Shown: piece after piece, positions 5,127 to 14,450 of the stretch
Position numbering within the stretch: position 1 is the stretch's first letter
Layout of the letters: each line of letters begins with the position of its first letter
DNA from: Sediminibacterium sp.
Lineage (GTDB): Bacteria > Bacteroidota > Bacteroidia > Chitinophagales > Chitinophagaceae
Assembly: GCA_017983845.1 (NCBI GenBank)
Contig: JAGOAO010000009.1
Span: 1-64,000, forward strand
Direction: 5' to 3'
DNA: 64,000 nucleotides
Program-made: the position numbers and the translations under genes
Notes under the pieces: generated by a model
Told to the model about the DNA's origin: nothing
What the model saw: only the letters and a program-made list of their open reading frames with translations
Databases searched by the model: none

Positions 5127-7232
5127 TTAAAATTTCTTTGTTCTGTTTTGAATTTGATACTTCACACTCATATACAATGTTCTTCCTGGCAGGTTGGGCA
5201 AATTGGCCGCATCAATATAATTCGTGATATTGTCTATCCCTGCTTGAATATTCAATCCATTCTTGAATGTTTTGCCAGCAGCGCTGTTGATCGCAACATA
5301 GCCACTAGCAAAAACATCGCCATTGTCAAAAACTTCGTTGCCATTGTTATTATTAACAGCCCATCTGCTTCTGTAAATGGCTCTTACATTCAAGTAATAA
5401 CCCTTGGGGGAATTATAATTTAATTTGATTTGTAGTTTATGTTTACTTGTATTAGGCAATCCCACATACTCATTTAGTTTCAGTAACCTGCTATACCCCT
5501 GACTATTTTTAGTATAGACTGTCCCCGATTTAATTTCAGCAATTTGATCCTTATCGCCTGTCACTAGATATTGATATCCACCGCTCAGTGTTAAGGTTTT
5601 ATTTAATTGATGCTGTCCTTCCAATTCAAATCCAGTCGTGAATGCGCGACCAATATTTAAGTAACTATATATTTGTGCCCCCGAGATATAAGTGCCTACT
5701 TGCTGAGATTCAATCAAGTTTTTAATGTCATTTCTAAAGAACTGAACCGATACATTTGAACGAGTGTTGATTTTCCAATCCCAGGTAAAGTGAACCCCAT
5801 TGGAATATTCAGGTTTTAATGCCTTTAGCTGATAATAACTTGGAAACAAATTACCTATTTGACCGAGTGCATCTAATTTTGCAATCACTTGTTGTGCCTG
5901 AGCCACACCAAAAACACTATAACTTCCCGCAGCCGCATTCGTAAAGTCTAAAAAGAGTTGTCTAAAATCGGGCGCTTTGAAGCCTTGTCCTATACTTAAT
6001 TTAAACTGATGTTGTGGATTCAATTTGTACAGCATAGAAACCTTAGGGCTCAATGCAGATGCAAATTGGGTATTGTTGTCAAACCTAAGTCCACCAATGA
6101 ATGTGAATTTTTCAGTTGGCTTCCATTCCCATTGCGTAAATGCATATTGAATTTCGTTCTGCTTTCTAATCTGCTCGCTATCATAACGACTGCTTTTTAC
6201 GCCCTCCCATACAGCGCCAATACCAAAAACTGCCTGAAGCTTTTTTTGAATATCCCAATCGGTTTGATTTTCTAGTCTTTTAAAATTATGATTCAATACA
6301 TCCCTATAAGGCAAACCATTAATTGTTACTAAATTTTGCACTGCATCATAAGTAGTGGTATAGCCCCTGATACTTGTTTTTAGTGTTGTAGAAAAGCGAT
6401 GATTCAAAGAAGCCGATAGATTTGCATCTTTAATAGACTCTTTGCCAATTGAATAAATGGTAACACCATTGTTTGAAACTGCAATTTCATTTTGAATTTG
6501 CTCTTGCGTAAAGCGTGTGTTGAACACCAAATTGGTCTTAGTACTAATATTCAATTTTAATTGTTGCGTTGTCGAATACCTGTCTATTGGAGTGGTGACA
6601 CGGCTATTGCTATTGGGACGGATACTATACCCATCTGTACTGTACACATTATAAAATCCTTGGTACAATACATTTTTTGTATTCCACTTTGTTTCCAAAT
6701 TTGCATCTAGGGTATTGTAAGTGCCATACCTTAATCCTACAGCAATGGGCGCGCCATAGGACGCATCTGTGATGATATTAATTACCCCCGCCATAGCCTC
6801 GCTCCCATACAAACTGGATGATGGCCCTTTTACAATTTCAATTTTTTTAATATTTCCTAGCGCAATTCTATTTAAATCTAAAACGCCTGCTGTACGACCA
6901 ACCAAAGGCTCTCCATTAATAAGGATGATTGTATAATCTGGATTTAAACCTTGTAATTGTACACCTGCGCCAAATCCACTTGTCAAATTCAGGCCGGTTT
7001 GTTCTTTTAAGATATCTGTTAAACGCAATGCGCCATTTTGTTGAATGGTTTTTGCATTAATAATAGTAACCGGTACCGTTAGGTTACTTAATTTTCTTTC
7101 TGTTCTTGTAGCTGTAACAACTACACTATCCCCATTCGCCTCAACCGTATCTTTAATGATACCCGTTTGTGCGTTTGAAGCGGTCCCATAAAGGAGGCCA
7201 AATAGTAAAAAAAAGTAGCTTGATTTTTTCAT
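5127..7232 (-). CDS. TonB-dependent outer-membrane receptor, HmuR-like
   Basis: 701 residues with a signal peptide (1-21, ending SNAQ). The plug domain is at about 35-155, with VTATRTERKLSNLTVPVTII, the RLTDILKEQTG box and IEIVKGPSSSLYGSEAMAGV. A 22-strand barrel follows, ending in aromatic residues near YMSVKYQIQNRTKKF. It takes up a ligand across the outer membrane using TonB energy. Pairing with an HmuY-like lipoprotein 32 bp downstream makes haem the likely ligand. Two neighbouring operons start from the 177-bp gap shared with pckA. I see no convincing Fur box in that gap. Confidence 0.82.
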   Translation of the reverse strand: MKKSSYFFLLFGLLYGTASNAQTGIIKDTVEANGDSVVVTATRTERKLSNLTVPVTIINAKTIQQNGALRLTDILKEQTGLNLTSGFGAGVQLQGLNPDYTIILINGEPLVGRTAGVLDLNRIALGNIKKIEIVKGPSSSLYGSEAMAGVINIITDASYGAPIAVGLRYGTYNTLDANLETKWNTKNVLYQGFYNVYSTDGYSIRPNSNSRVTTPIDRYSTTQQLKLNISTKTNLVFNTRFTQEQIQNEIAVSNNGVTIYSIGKESIKDANLSASLNHRFSTTLKTSIRGYTTTYDAVQNLVTINGLPYRDVLNHNFKRLENQTDWDIQKKLQAVFGIGAVWEGVKSSRYDSEQIRKQNEIQYAFTQWEWKPTEKFTFIGGLRFDNNTQFASALSPKVSMLYKLNPQHQFKLSIGQGFKAPDFRQLFLDFTNAAAGSYSVFGVAQAQQVIAKLDALGQIGNLFPSYYQLKALKPEYSNGVHFTWDWKINTRSNVSVQFFRNDIKNLIESQQVGTYISGAQIYSYLNIGRAFTTGFELEGQHQLNKTLTLSGGYQYLVTGDKDQIAEIKSGTVYTKNSQGYSRLLKLNEYVGLPNTSKHKLQIKLNYNSPKGYYLNVRAIYRSRWAVNNNNGNEVFDNGDVFASGYVAINSAAGKTFKNGLNIQAGIDNITNYIDAANLPNLPGRTLYMSVKYQIQNRTKKF

Positions 7233-7409
7233 TCAGAATGCAAAGGTGAACCTTATCAATATAATTTTGCTTTGCGCTAAAGTATTATTGGTTGTTTTAT
7301 CCTGTTTTTTGACATTCAGATGACAATTAAAAATTTAGTAATAAATCAAAACTGATTTTGATCATTTTTAACCGAACTTAAGGGTGCTAACTTTAAACAA
7401 ATTTAAACA

Positions 7410-10642: not shown

Positions 10643-11848
10643 TTAAAAATTGATCTGAGCCTGAATTCTTAATAAATTGCCTTTCTGAAGATTGTCTTGA
10701 TTCTTATAATCTTCAAACTTTCTTGACGAAATGGTATACATAGTCACTAATTCAAAATGCTTATTGGGCTGCCATTCTAATCCAAGCTCAAATTCTTTGA
10801 CTTCATAAGATCTTGCATCTAATTCATGTTTTTTGCCCCCTTTGTAATATTGAAATCTTGTGAATGGGATGAACACTTGATTGTGTAGGTTTGTTTTATA
10901 TGAAGTGGTAATATATCCACCTTTTAATGACTTGTTTTCAATGGAATCCGTCAATTTATTAAACTCTGGTCCTTTACCAATATTATATTCCGCTTGAATG
11001 CCAAATGGCTTAGGATATAATATAAACGAGGCTGCTACGCGTGCATCTTCATAGGATTTGTCTTTTTTATATTTCACTGCGGCACTTAGTTGGTCTGCAC
11101 CAAGCACATATTTACCTGTATATGCCTGTATGCCTGTTTCAATAATCTGATTTCCCATCGTAAAAGGATAACTCAATCTCACAACTGTATGTAAACTGTT
11201 ATTGGCCTCTGGTTTGTTAGCAGTTTGGCCATTGTAAACCCCAAATCCAAATACCCCATAATCGCCACTGCCTTTCAATCCATCACTCACCAAACTTGAA
11301 TACAATTTCCTTATTCTCTTGGGTGCCCAATAAAAATTAGCTCCCAGATCTCTTTCATTAGAAACAGCACTATTTAATGCGTCATTTCGGTCAAGCGGCA
11401 GTCTATTTTGACTTGATTGCATATTTTCAAAGCCAAATGGCACTTTACTTTGTCCAATTCTTAATCTATATGTATTATCAGCAGTTAAACCCAAGTCCAT
11501 ATACGCATCTCTTATTTGTGCAAAATGGTTGGCAGTGGAGGAAGGACTGCTTACAAAATCAGGCTGAAAATACAAATAGACCCTTTCACTGATTTGACCA
11601 CTTATGACCAATCTTGCTCTACGAATAAAAAAGCCACCATTCTCGCCCCAACTTTTGTCACATTGGTCACATTTTAACAAGGGATTGGTTTCTAAAAGCC
11701 TATTATATCGCACTTGCATATAACCCCTCAGCTGAAGGGATTCGTACCATTGCTTTGAAACAGGCTTTGTTTGAGCAAATAGGGCGCTTGCAGTAACCGT
11801 CATTAAAATAAATAATACGATGAAGCTTTTGGCAGAAATGCGTTTCAT
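10643..11848 (-). CDS. Phosphate-selective porin O/P family protein
   Basis: About 401 residues from the preferred start MKRISAKSFIVL; an upstream in-frame ATG at 11878 would add ten residues in front of the signal peptide. The signal peptide ends at LFAQ. The barrel begins with LRGYMQVRYNRLLETNP and FFIRRARLVISGQISERVYL, a pattern of the porin O/P family, and ends in LRIQAQINF with the terminal aromatic typical of outer-membrane barrels. The pair CDQC near 73-76 may form a disulfide loop. The family lets phosphate or polyphosphate through the outer membrane. Divergence from a PhoU-like and Pit pair supports a phosphate role. A Pho-box-like array lies 45 bp upstream. Confidence 0.82.
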   Translation of the reverse strand: MKRISAKSFIVLFILMTVTASALFAQTKPVSKQWYESLQLRGYMQVRYNRLLETNPLLKCDQCDKSWGENGGFFIRRARLVISGQISERVYLYFQPDFVSSPSSTANHFAQIRDAYMDLGLTADNTYRLRIGQSKVPFGFENMQSSQNRLPLDRNDALNSAVSNERDLGANFYWAPKRIRKLYSSLVSDGLKGSGDYGVFGFGVYNGQTANKPEANNSLHTVVRLSYPFTMGNQIIETGIQAYTGKYVLGADQLSAAVKYKKDKSYEDARVAASFILYPKPFGIQAEYNIGKGPEFNKLTDSIENKSLKGGYITTSYKTNLHNQVFIPFTRFQYYKGGKKHELDARSYEVKEFELGLEWQPNKHFELVTMYTISSRKFEDYKNQDNLQKGNLLRIQAQINF

Positions 11849-11892
11849 GAAGGAAGTATTGGTATAAAGTGGTAGCAAAGCTGCTATACTAA

Positions 11893-11932
11893 TGTTACCA
11901 AATTGTTACGCAAATATTACCAAATTGTTACC
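11893..11932. promoter_or_regulatory. Pho-box-like array of four 11-bp-spaced direct repeats
   Basis: Four 7-bp repeats with exactly 11-bp periodicity: TGTTACC (11893-11899), TGTTACG (11904-11910), TATTACC (11915-11921) and TGTTACC (11926-11932), separated by A/T-rich 4-bp spacers. This is the architecture of PhoB/PhoP operators, and TGTTAC resembles the enterobacterial CTGTCAT unit. It lies between the phosphate porin gene (start 45 bp away) and the PhoU-like/Pit operon. A -7-like CAGCTTTG for the porin is present on the minus strand at 11876-11883. The binding protein is inferred. Confidence 0.65.
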
Positions 11933-12078
11933 AAATCAATATTTGGAAAGTGTCATATATGCAAATAACTGATTATCAGCATGTTTTATTGAATTAACAA
12001 TTTGATAATATAGAACCATCATTATATAAAGGAAAAATTTGGAGGTTTGTCTTGAATAAATCAACAAAATCAACCATT

Positions 12079-12726
12079 ATGGACATCAATTCAATCATGA
12101 AGATCTTTTTACCAAAGGATAGAGTGTTTTTTCAGTTATTTGAAGAAGTAGCAGAACACGTTTACGAAATGGGCGTTAAATTAAAAGAAATGGTGAACGA
12201 ACCAGACGCGGATGTAAGAGCAAACATTCTTGCACAAATTGAAAACTTAGAACATAAAAATGACGAGTTAACGCATAATATTTTTACAGAACTTGGCAGG
12301 AATTTTATCACTCCGTTTGACAGAGAGGACATTCACTATCTTGCAACATCATTAGATGATATCGCAGATTATATTTACGCATCTGCTAAAAAAATCAACT
12401 TCTACAAAGTGAATCCAAACGATACAGGAATTCATAAATTAGCAGAGTTGGTTTTACAAGGTACTCAAGAGACTAAAAAAGCAGTACTTGGATTACGCAA
12501 CATGAAGAATGTTAAGGAAATGACAGATGCGATGATTAAAATTAATAGCATCGAAAATCAAGCAGATGATGTGTTTGATATGAGTATTGAGAAATTATTT
12601 GAACAAGAAAATGATTTCAAAGAAGTGATTAAGAAAAGAGAGATCTATCAAGTACTTGAAATAGCTACAGATAAAATCGAAGATGTATCTAATGTAATTG
12701 AATCTATCATTATCAAGTACGCTTAA
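12079..12726 (+). CDS. PhoU-like DUF47 family phosphate transport regulator
   Basis: About 215 residues from ATG at 12079 (MDINSIMKIFLPKDRVFF), the start that fits the family. A TTG at 12052 with GGAGG six bases in front is an alternative and adds nine residues. The protein is all helical and cytoplasmic, made of two PhoU-like three-helix bundles. It has acidic metal-binding stretches such as DREDIHYLATSLDDIADYI in the first half and ENQADDVFDMSIEKLFEQE in the second. DUF47 proteins usually sit next to Pit transporters and are thought to control them. The Pit gene starts 11 bp downstream, so the two form an operon. The Pho-box-like array lies upstream. Confidence 0.88.
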   Translation: MDINSIMKIFLPKDRVFFQLFEEVAEHVYEMGVKLKEMVNEPDADVRANILAQIENLEHKNDELTHNIFTELGRNFITPFDREDIHYLATSLDDIADYIYASAKKINFYKVNPNDTGIHKLAELVLQGTQETKKAVLGLRNMKNVKEMTDAMIKINSIENQADDVFDMSIEKLFEQENDFKEVIKKREIYQVLEIATDKIEDVSNVIESIIIKYA

Positions 12727-12737
12727 TTTAATTCACA

Positions 12738-14450
12738 ATGACATTATTAATCATCATTATAGCGCTTGCGCTTATATTTGACTATATCAATGGTTTTCAC
12801 GATGCCGCCAATTCCATTGCCACTGTAGTTTCTACAAAAGTGTTGACTCCATTTCAGGCGGTACTATGGGCTGCGCTTTTTAATTCTGTAGCTTATTGGA
12901 TTTTTAAAGACCACGCAGTTGCAAACTCAATTAGTAAAACAGTCTATAAAGAGTTTATTACTTTGCCGGTAATTTTTTCAGGATTGCTTGCTGCTATTTT
13001 TTGGAACTTATTAACTTGGTGGTATGGTATCCCATCCTCATCTTCTCATACTTTAATAGGAGGGTTTGCCGGTGCAGCAATAGCACATGCACTATCTGTT
13101 AAAGGAGTAGACTACTCATGGTCAAAAATAGTAGATGCTGACACAATTTTTAAAACAGTACTCTTTATTTTCTTGGCACCCATTATTGGTATTATTATTT
13201 CAGTATTTATCACATTAGTTACCATCATGCGTAACATATGGTGGAGACTTTTTATTATTACAGCAACCACATTGTTAACTGCATTCCTTTTTGACTATTT
13301 TGAGAATTCTAAAATGAATGAAAATGCACAGAAGTTCTTTAGCATTGATAAGTATAAAAAAGAAATTAGCGTATTAACAACAGAATTGGAAGAAAAGAAA
13401 AACGACAGCGTGTTGTTGGCGAAAATTGAATCGGCTCAAGAAAAAATGGAGAAAGCAAAAGCAAATTTTGATCATATCCATCCTTATATCGAGAATTTTG
13501 ATAAAACAAGTGCTAACTATATTGCTAAAGTTGCTAAAGATAGTGGCTGGTTAAATAGCATTGCAGTTAGTAAATTAAAGGATGCTGTAAGAAATGCCAA
13601 TGATTTTTTAGTATTAGAGGCAAAAGCACCTGAAAATGAAGCAGCAAAAGAAAAATACGATGAAGCAAAGCTGATTACTGAAAAATACAAAGAGCCTTTA
13701 AAATTGTATTTAGACGGGGCTATCTCGTCTGACTCGGCTATAGTAATGATCAACCAGATCTATCCAATACAACCAAAAAATGTAGACAAGGTAAAGGCAA
13801 AGATTGCAAAATTCAATATCGAAAAATCCTTTGCTTCAGAGGTTGACAAAGCGGACAATACAATTATTGTTAACGGCATTTTTGGCGCGGCAATTTTATT
13901 TATGTTGATCTATGTTTATGTAGAGAAGATTAAAACCCCAACTGCATACACCGTTGCGAACATGTTTAAGAAATTACAGTTATTTAGTTCTGCTGCATTT
14001 AGTATCGGACACGGTGGCAATGACGCACAAAAGGTCATGGGTATCATTGGTGCTGCGTTGATTGCAAGTGGTAGTATCCAAGACTTTGCCTCACTTCCAA
14101 ACTGGGTGCCAGTAGCTTGTTACTTAGCCATTGGATTGGGTACAATGAGTGGTGGATGGAAAATTGTAAAAACAATGGGTTCTAAAATCACCAAAGTAAC
14201 TCCATTAGAAGGTGTGGCTGCTGAAACAGCGGGTGCATTTACTTTGTTCTTTACTGGACAAATGGGTATTCCTGTTTCAACTACACATACCATTACTGGT
14301 TCAATCATTGGAGTTGGTGCAACAAAAAGATTAAGTGCGGTTAGATGGGGCGTGACTACCAACTTACTATGGGCATGGGTTTTAACCATTCCCGTAAGTG
14401 CGGTACTTGCTGCAATCACTTATTATATTGTAGCATTCTTCCACGGATAA
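12738..14450 (+). CDS. Inorganic phosphate transporter, PiT family, with a large central insert
   Basis: 570 residues. The two PiT repeats are clear: FDYINGFHDAANSIATVVS near residue 12 and FSIGHGGNDAQKVMGIIG near 423. Each carries the phosphate and cation binding GxxHDAAN or GGNDA signature. About ten helices lie in two blocks (1-185 and 375-570). Between them is an unusually long hydrophilic segment of roughly 185 residues, rich in Lys, Glu and Ala, with coiled-coil stretches such as LTTELEEKKNDSVLLAKIES. It imports phosphate with a cation across the inner membrane. It is co-transcribed with the PhoU-like gene 11 bp upstream and ends at a strong terminator. The insert may dock the PhoU-like partner; that is inference. 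Confidence 0.92.
   Translation: MTLLIIIIALALIFDYINGFHDAANSIATVVSTKVLTPFQAVLWAALFNSVAYWIFKDHAVANSISKTVYKEFITLPVIFSGLLAAIFWNLLTWWYGIPSSSSHTLIGGFAGAAIAHALSVKGVDYSWSKIVDADTIFKTVLFIFLAPIIGIIISVFITLVTIMRNIWWRLFIITATTLLTAFLFDYFENSKMNENAQKFFSIDKYKKEISVLTTELEEKKNDSVLLAKIESAQEKMEKAKANFDHIHPYIENFDKTSANYIAKVAKDSGWLNSIAVSKLKDAVRNANDFLVLEAKAPENEAAKEKYDEAKLITEKYKEPLKLYLDGAISSDSAIVMINQIYPIQPKNVDKVKAKIAKFNIEKSFASEVDKADNTIIVNGIFGAAILFMLIYVYVEKIKTPTAYTVANMFKKLQLFSSAAFSIGHGGNDAQKVMGIIGAALIASGSIQDFASLPNWVPVACYLAIGLGTMSGGWKIVKTMGSKITKVTPLEGVAAETAGAFTLFFTGQMGIPVSTTHTITGSIIGVGATKRLSAVRWGVTTNLLWAWVLTIPVSAVLAAITYYIVAFFHG

Follow-up and report, generated by a model that had tools for sequence, protein, structure and literature searches.

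Introduction

The PhoP box of Bacillus subtilis is built from TTAACA-type repeats. The Pho box of Escherichia coli consists of CTGTCAT repeats in 11-nt units, each with seven conserved and four less conserved bases, and the Streptomyces PhoP box has the unit GTTCACC (PMC4415409). PhoB is already known to act in Bacteroidota, in Bacteroides fragilis and in Flavobacterium. In the B. fragilis study, PhoB binds a 512-bp fragment of the pstC promoter and is needed for pstC induction; its passages on promoters, motifs or boxes give no box sequence (PMC3547664). In Flavobacterium johnsoniae, phoB, TonB-dependent receptors and a FecR gene are induced at low phosphate, and the paper on this Pho regulon names no Pho box or promoter motif (0 occurrences; PMC8115612). 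PhoP of Riemerella anatipestifer, an OmpR-family regulator, goes up at low phosphate and binds its own promoter. Its most conserved bases in DAP-seq are TTTAACA, a motif reported as ArcA-like, with aerotolerance genes among the targets, and not presented as an 11-bp Pho box (PMC9603813).

We did not find a Bacteroidota-wide Pho box consensus in the open-licence literature; an earlier description elsewhere is possible. A tested consensus would make Pho regulons readable in the genomes of many uncultured Bacteroidota from fresh water, soil and gut. The locus described here comes from a freshwater Sediminibacterium MAG with a 2.03-Mb genome. The window is the whole stretch of 64,000 nucleotides that was analysed.

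Results

A four-unit array lies before a porin gene

The original prediction described four 7-bp repeats at exact 11-bp intervals between a porin gene and a PhoU-like/Pit operon, with a -7-like element of the porin beside them, and each of these statements holds. Read directly, the repeats (Table 1) are separated by the spacers AAAT, CAAA and AAAT and have a period of exactly 11 bp. They are direct-repeat units of 11 nt, seven conserved and four variable, and form two adjacent 18-bp boxes, 11893-11910 and 11915-11932. Pfam identifies the flanking genes as Porin_O_P, PhoU_div/DUF47 and PHO4/Pit. The TTG at 11878, given as the porin start in the open reading frame list, is unlikely to be the start codon.

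The exact four-unit pattern occurs once in the window with no mismatches and is absent from 100 dinucleotide shuffles of it, even when three mismatches are allowed. A looser two-unit pattern with two mismatches is at chance level in the window, so the strength of the case lies in the exact four-unit array. In the related loci L077 and L078, which have the same divergent porin (76-77% identical), the position of the array is kept. There, both this operator and the second one described below are conserved blocks within an otherwise diverged intergenic region.

Table 1. Features of the porin/phoU-pit region, and exact box sites in the genome
Feature	Position	Strand	Sequence or evidence
Four-unit Pho operator, porin promoter (candidate)	11893..11932	-	Repeats, spacing, conservation
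Half-sites of the array	11893-11899; 11904-11910; 11915-11921; 11926-11932		TGTTACC; TGTTACG; TATTACC; TGTTACC
Second Pho box, phoU-pit promoter (candidate)	11993..12010	-	TATTATCAAATTGTTAAT; toward phoU reads TTAACAATTTGATAATA
Putative -7 element, porin promoter	11876..11883	-	CAGCTTTG; CAATTTTG at the same place in L077/L078
Tentative -7 element, phoU-pit promoter	12042..12049	+	GAGGTTTG; 31 bp from box; weak, poor TAnnTTTG match
Porin_O_P outer-membrane porin gene	10643..11848	-	ATG 11848; Pfam E 1.5e-31
phoU-like DUF47 (PhoU_div) gene, first of operon	12082..12726	+	ATG 12082; Pfam E 4.4e-21
Pit/PHO4 inorganic phosphate transporter gene	12738..14450	+	Pfam E 7.4e-94
Exact sites of TRTTAYCWAATTRTTAMY	C1:11827; 11915; 11993; C43:6110		phoB/phoBR; porin; phoU-pit; TonB-dependent receptor (GTG start)

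phoU-pit has a box of its own

A second box, which the original prediction missed, has the opposite orientation, lies before phoU and is better conserved than the array. The upstream regions of phoU at 80 related loci share one two-unit box at a near-constant distance from the phoU ATG, and 72 of 78 related promoters of phoU have it. A matrix made from these sites places 11993, 11915 and 11893 as the top three positions in the window. To avoid circularity, the phoU sites and the window were left out and the matrix was retrained from the sites of phoB, porin, TonB-receptor and pstS genes alone; the three window boxes again rank first, and 70 of the 78 phoU promoters score at least 18. With the original matrix, none of the 84 promoters at PF12849 loci that served as negative control reached 16. 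The original prediction placed the array in the divergent promoter region. More precisely, it belongs to the porin promoter, and phoU-pit has its own box.

Box placement differs among relatives. In three porin-phoU-pit operons (L087, L112, L114) there is no box before phoU and one roughly 75-110 bp before the porin gene. Equivalent phoU promoters of different clades carry the box in both orientations. Upstream regions of phoU in other families of the order are mostly without a box, so the phoU site is not universal; in those families the signal is carried by phoB, porin and pst sites.

Preferred distances to the -7 element are partly stepped by 11 bp

The two boxes of the porin array are 9 and 31 bp from CAGCTTTG. 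In a modest sample that includes related sequences, not independent of one another, the preferred distances of the box from the Bacteroidota -7 element (TAnnTTTG) are 30-33, 42 and 53 bp in one orientation and 35-37 bp in the other. Spacings that change by about 11 bp are consistent with a regulator that works from a single face of the helix. A sigma-70 promoter scan was uninformative here. Six-unit, 11-bp GTAACA arrays occur in the promoters of TonB-dependent receptors (L120, L122, L130, L232), about 9 bp before TAnTTTTG; in L122 the six units end 9 bp before TACTTTTG.

The box accompanies phosphate genes in the genome and the genus

The original prediction depended on the repeats co-occurring with other phosphate genes in this genome or its relatives, and genome-wide pattern searches found that they do: the motif accompanies phoBR, the porin and phoU-pit, and it recurs at phosphate genes in the genus, order and phylum. 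Its unit consensus is TRTTAYC/TRTTAMY. Pattern searches of the 2.03-Mb genome give four exact matches to the 18-bp form TRTTAYCWAATTRTTAMY (Table 1). A genome-wide search for three units with up to three mismatches returned in effect the array alone, because most boxes have two units. The 18-bp pattern with two mismatches was at background level across 20 genomes and genome-wide.

The exact pattern occurs 125 times in 121 congeneric genomes, its reversal 5 times. Inspection of 62 distinct sites, classified by short sequence signatures with Pfam on examples so that the counts are approximate, placed 14 before phoB, 11 before phoU, at least 12 before TonB-dependent receptors, 2 before a PafA-like phosphatase, 1 before a porin and several before FecR genes. 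The boxes are found upstream of both phosphate-acquisition genes and the gene of the presumed regulator.

FecR-type anti-sigma genes with a box 50-75 bp upstream (L192, L193, L200, L228, L274, L275, L284, L285, L315; assignment checked by Pfam on L193, L228 and L274) suggest phosphate control of SusC/D-like uptake loci. The PafA-like phosphatase gene carries its box in two congeners (L131/L225, L201/L231); Flavobacterium PafA is described as phosphate-insensitive (PMC8812569).

One regulator of the genome resembles PhoB

The genome encodes three OmpR/PhoB-type DNA-binding domains. One regulator is RprY-like, one is nearest to YycF models and the third, which has a box at its own gene, is PhoB-like and the only one for which PhoB models come out first. 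This protein combines PF00072 and PF00486, as a PhoB-type response regulator does, is 36% identical to E. coli PhoB and shares with it the recognition helix DRTxDVHxRxxR. These residues contact DNA in the E. coli PhoB crystal structure. Its scores are below the NCBIfam equivalog cut-offs (TIGR02154, 197.8 against 296.2 bits; NF053854, 199.2 against 270 bits), and these two models are still its best of 63 families. The adjoining gene encodes a HisKA/HATPase kinase that scores 215.6 against 334.2 bits with the PhoR model and best with the PnpS model. Because both proteins are below the cut-offs, we use PhoB and PhoR as functional names suggested by sequence. PhoB is the likely binder of the boxes, since its gene is present, carries a box and encodes a recognition helix resembling that of E. 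coli PhoB.

Porin and Pit as the presumed route of phosphate uptake

No PstC above the cut-off was found in 20 Sediminibacterium genomes, the source genome among them; the same search was positive in both genomes of other families that were included. The PstSCAB set of a Pst-coupled Pho system was not found. Uptake in the genus would then depend on Pit together with the porin. Matches to PF12849 were considered as PstS and rejected: their neighbours are HisS and TPR genes, and both PstC and a box are absent. This PstS-like lipoprotein (L148-L167) is kept throughout the genus and is probably not part of a phosphate importer.

The box extends beyond the genus

Outside the genus, about 383 genomes of the same order contain 56 exact sites against 19 control sites, so many of the matches are due to chance. 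About half of the exact matches lie away from obvious phosphate genes, which fits the 19 control matches. By automatic count, 22 of 50 inspected sites precede phoB, phoU, porins, pstS or a TonB receptor, and a few more were recognised by eye (L278 porin, L298 phoB). Boxes precede phoB (L270, 276, 277, 281-283, 298), phoU (L272, 278, 287, 291, 296, 313), porins (L292-295, 305, 307, 308) and, in three families, pstS (L268, L306, L309). The pstS of L268 is a true PstS, scoring 339 bits against a cut-off of 205, and is followed by pstC.

In 69 stretches surrounding pst genes of the phylum, 248 kb in all, 13 sites score at least 18; the reversed matrix gives 0. One family has the box about 92-101 bp before pstS (L339, L341-L343). 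In other families, porin-pst operons are preceded at about 72-134 bp by a variant, TGTTAAGAAATTGTTAAG (L353, L356-L359, L361, L362). About one third of 39 porin-pst promoters score at least 12, close to the 99th percentile for shuffled sequence. Only weak sites, or none, were found at many other pst loci of the phylum.

Discussion

In our view the array is very probably a Pho box and serves as tandem operator of a PhoB-type regulator, part of a PhoBR system encoded elsewhere in the genome. The kind of operator is already known; the sequence of its unit appears to be new. Like the E. coli Pho box, it has tandem 11-nt units of seven conserved and four less conserved bases, stands before phoB and phosphate uptake genes, and goes with a PhoB-type regulator whose recognition-helix residues are conserved. 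Unlike in E. coli, the unit is TGTTACC/TATTAAC rather than CTGTCAT, with TGTnA alone in common, single boxes are separated by 30-37 bp from a -7 element of Bacteroidota type instead of adjoining the -10, and both orientations occur. Of the original comparison, the PhoB/PhoP architecture of 11-nt units stands, while B. subtilis and Streptomyces PhoP boxes are at least as close as CTGTCAT. Read toward the gene, the unit is G(T/G)TAACA (CTTAACA in other Bacteroidota) with an 11-bp period, as in those PhoP boxes, and arrays of several units occur in both. The phylum and promoter type differ, however, and so does the Sediminibacterium gene set, which is without pst. Riemerella PhoP is like the PhoB described here in motif and regulator family, and the F. 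johnsoniae genes induced at low phosphate are of the same kinds as those that carry boxes here.

The repeats, their conservation, their spacing, the phosphate genes around them and a PhoB-type protein are observed; from these we infer binding by PhoB, activation, and low phosphate as the signal. During phosphate limitation, the PhoBR two-component system encoded on contig C1 would place phosphorylated PhoB on the box head-to-tail, one monomer per 11-bp unit and all on one face of the helix. Bound PhoB would then bring in RNA polymerase at a promoter of the Bacteroidota type, which combines a TAnnTTTG-like -7 element with a weak -33. Two PhoB dimers would cover the porin operator, from 9 to 48 bp upstream of its -7 element, and a single dimer would occupy the separate box of phoU-pit. 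PhoBR is probably autoregulated, because phoBR itself carries a box. The occurrence of both orientations at equivalent phoU promoters is not simply predicted by a head-to-tail activator.

PhoB could also bind at phoU-pit and repress it, so that phosphate limitation would turn low-affinity Pit off and the porin and other genes on. We regard this as unlikely. The DUF47-pit operon of Sinorhizobium meliloti, the same gene pair, has been reported to be repressed at low phosphate. Against repression here, Pit is the only phosphate importer recognised in the 20 genomes searched for PstC, and the -7 element is not covered by the box, which is 30-37 bp farther upstream.

It is improbable, somewhat more so than repression, that both promoters share the array and that it activates plus-strand phoU-pit as well. 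Some other genera (L278, L287, L296) do have a single box between divergent porin and phoU genes. At our locus, however, phoU-pit has its own box at a conserved distance, and the array is more than 100 bp from the phoU -7 candidates.

Very unlikely is binding by another OmpR-family regulator that prefers TGTTA direct repeats, such as a redox regulator of the ArcA type. ArcA-type boxes are TGTTA direct repeats too. The genome has two further OmpR-family regulators, and the Riemerella PhoP motif TTTAACA points the same way in being called ArcA-like (PMC9603813). The targets here, however, are phosphate genes and phoBR itself, and it is for the regulator with a box at its own gene that PhoB models rank first. 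A functionless A/T-rich tandem repeat made by chance or slippage has a negligible probability: the region is A/T-rich, but shuffling does not reach the array, and the conserved blocks amid diverged flanks and the genus-wide excess of 125 over 5 refute this reading in practice.

We put forward the box as a candidate Bacteroidota Pho consensus. Whether the phylum inherited 11-bp TTAACA/GTAACA boxes, spaced at fixed intervals from its own -7 element, as its ancestral PhoB operator, with Sediminibacterium combining Pst-less PhoR sensing and uptake by DUF47-Pit and porin, is evenly balanced in our judgement. The box predicts phosphate regulation of TonB-dependent receptors, FecR regulators and phosphatases, and regulation without Pst raises the question of how PhoR senses phosphate.

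Several minor observations concern other genes near boxes. In the window, a weak box-like sequence, TATTACTAAATTTTTAAT (7326-7343, minus strand), with two mismatches, a level at which matches are background genome-wide, lies about 94 bp before a TonB-dependent receptor gene (5127-7232, minus strand) and beside a PEP carboxykinase gene. In L183/L233, an exact box is found 59 bp upstream of the gene for a small protein of about 105 aa (MKATNKAMLYEAVSEFIQLH...) that has no Pfam match. At seven phoB loci (L123, L126, L129, L142, L144, L145, L202), a divergent gene shares the box with phoB and encodes a secreted protein of about 470-490 aa with the sequence '...PAMRQLHHEYI...'.
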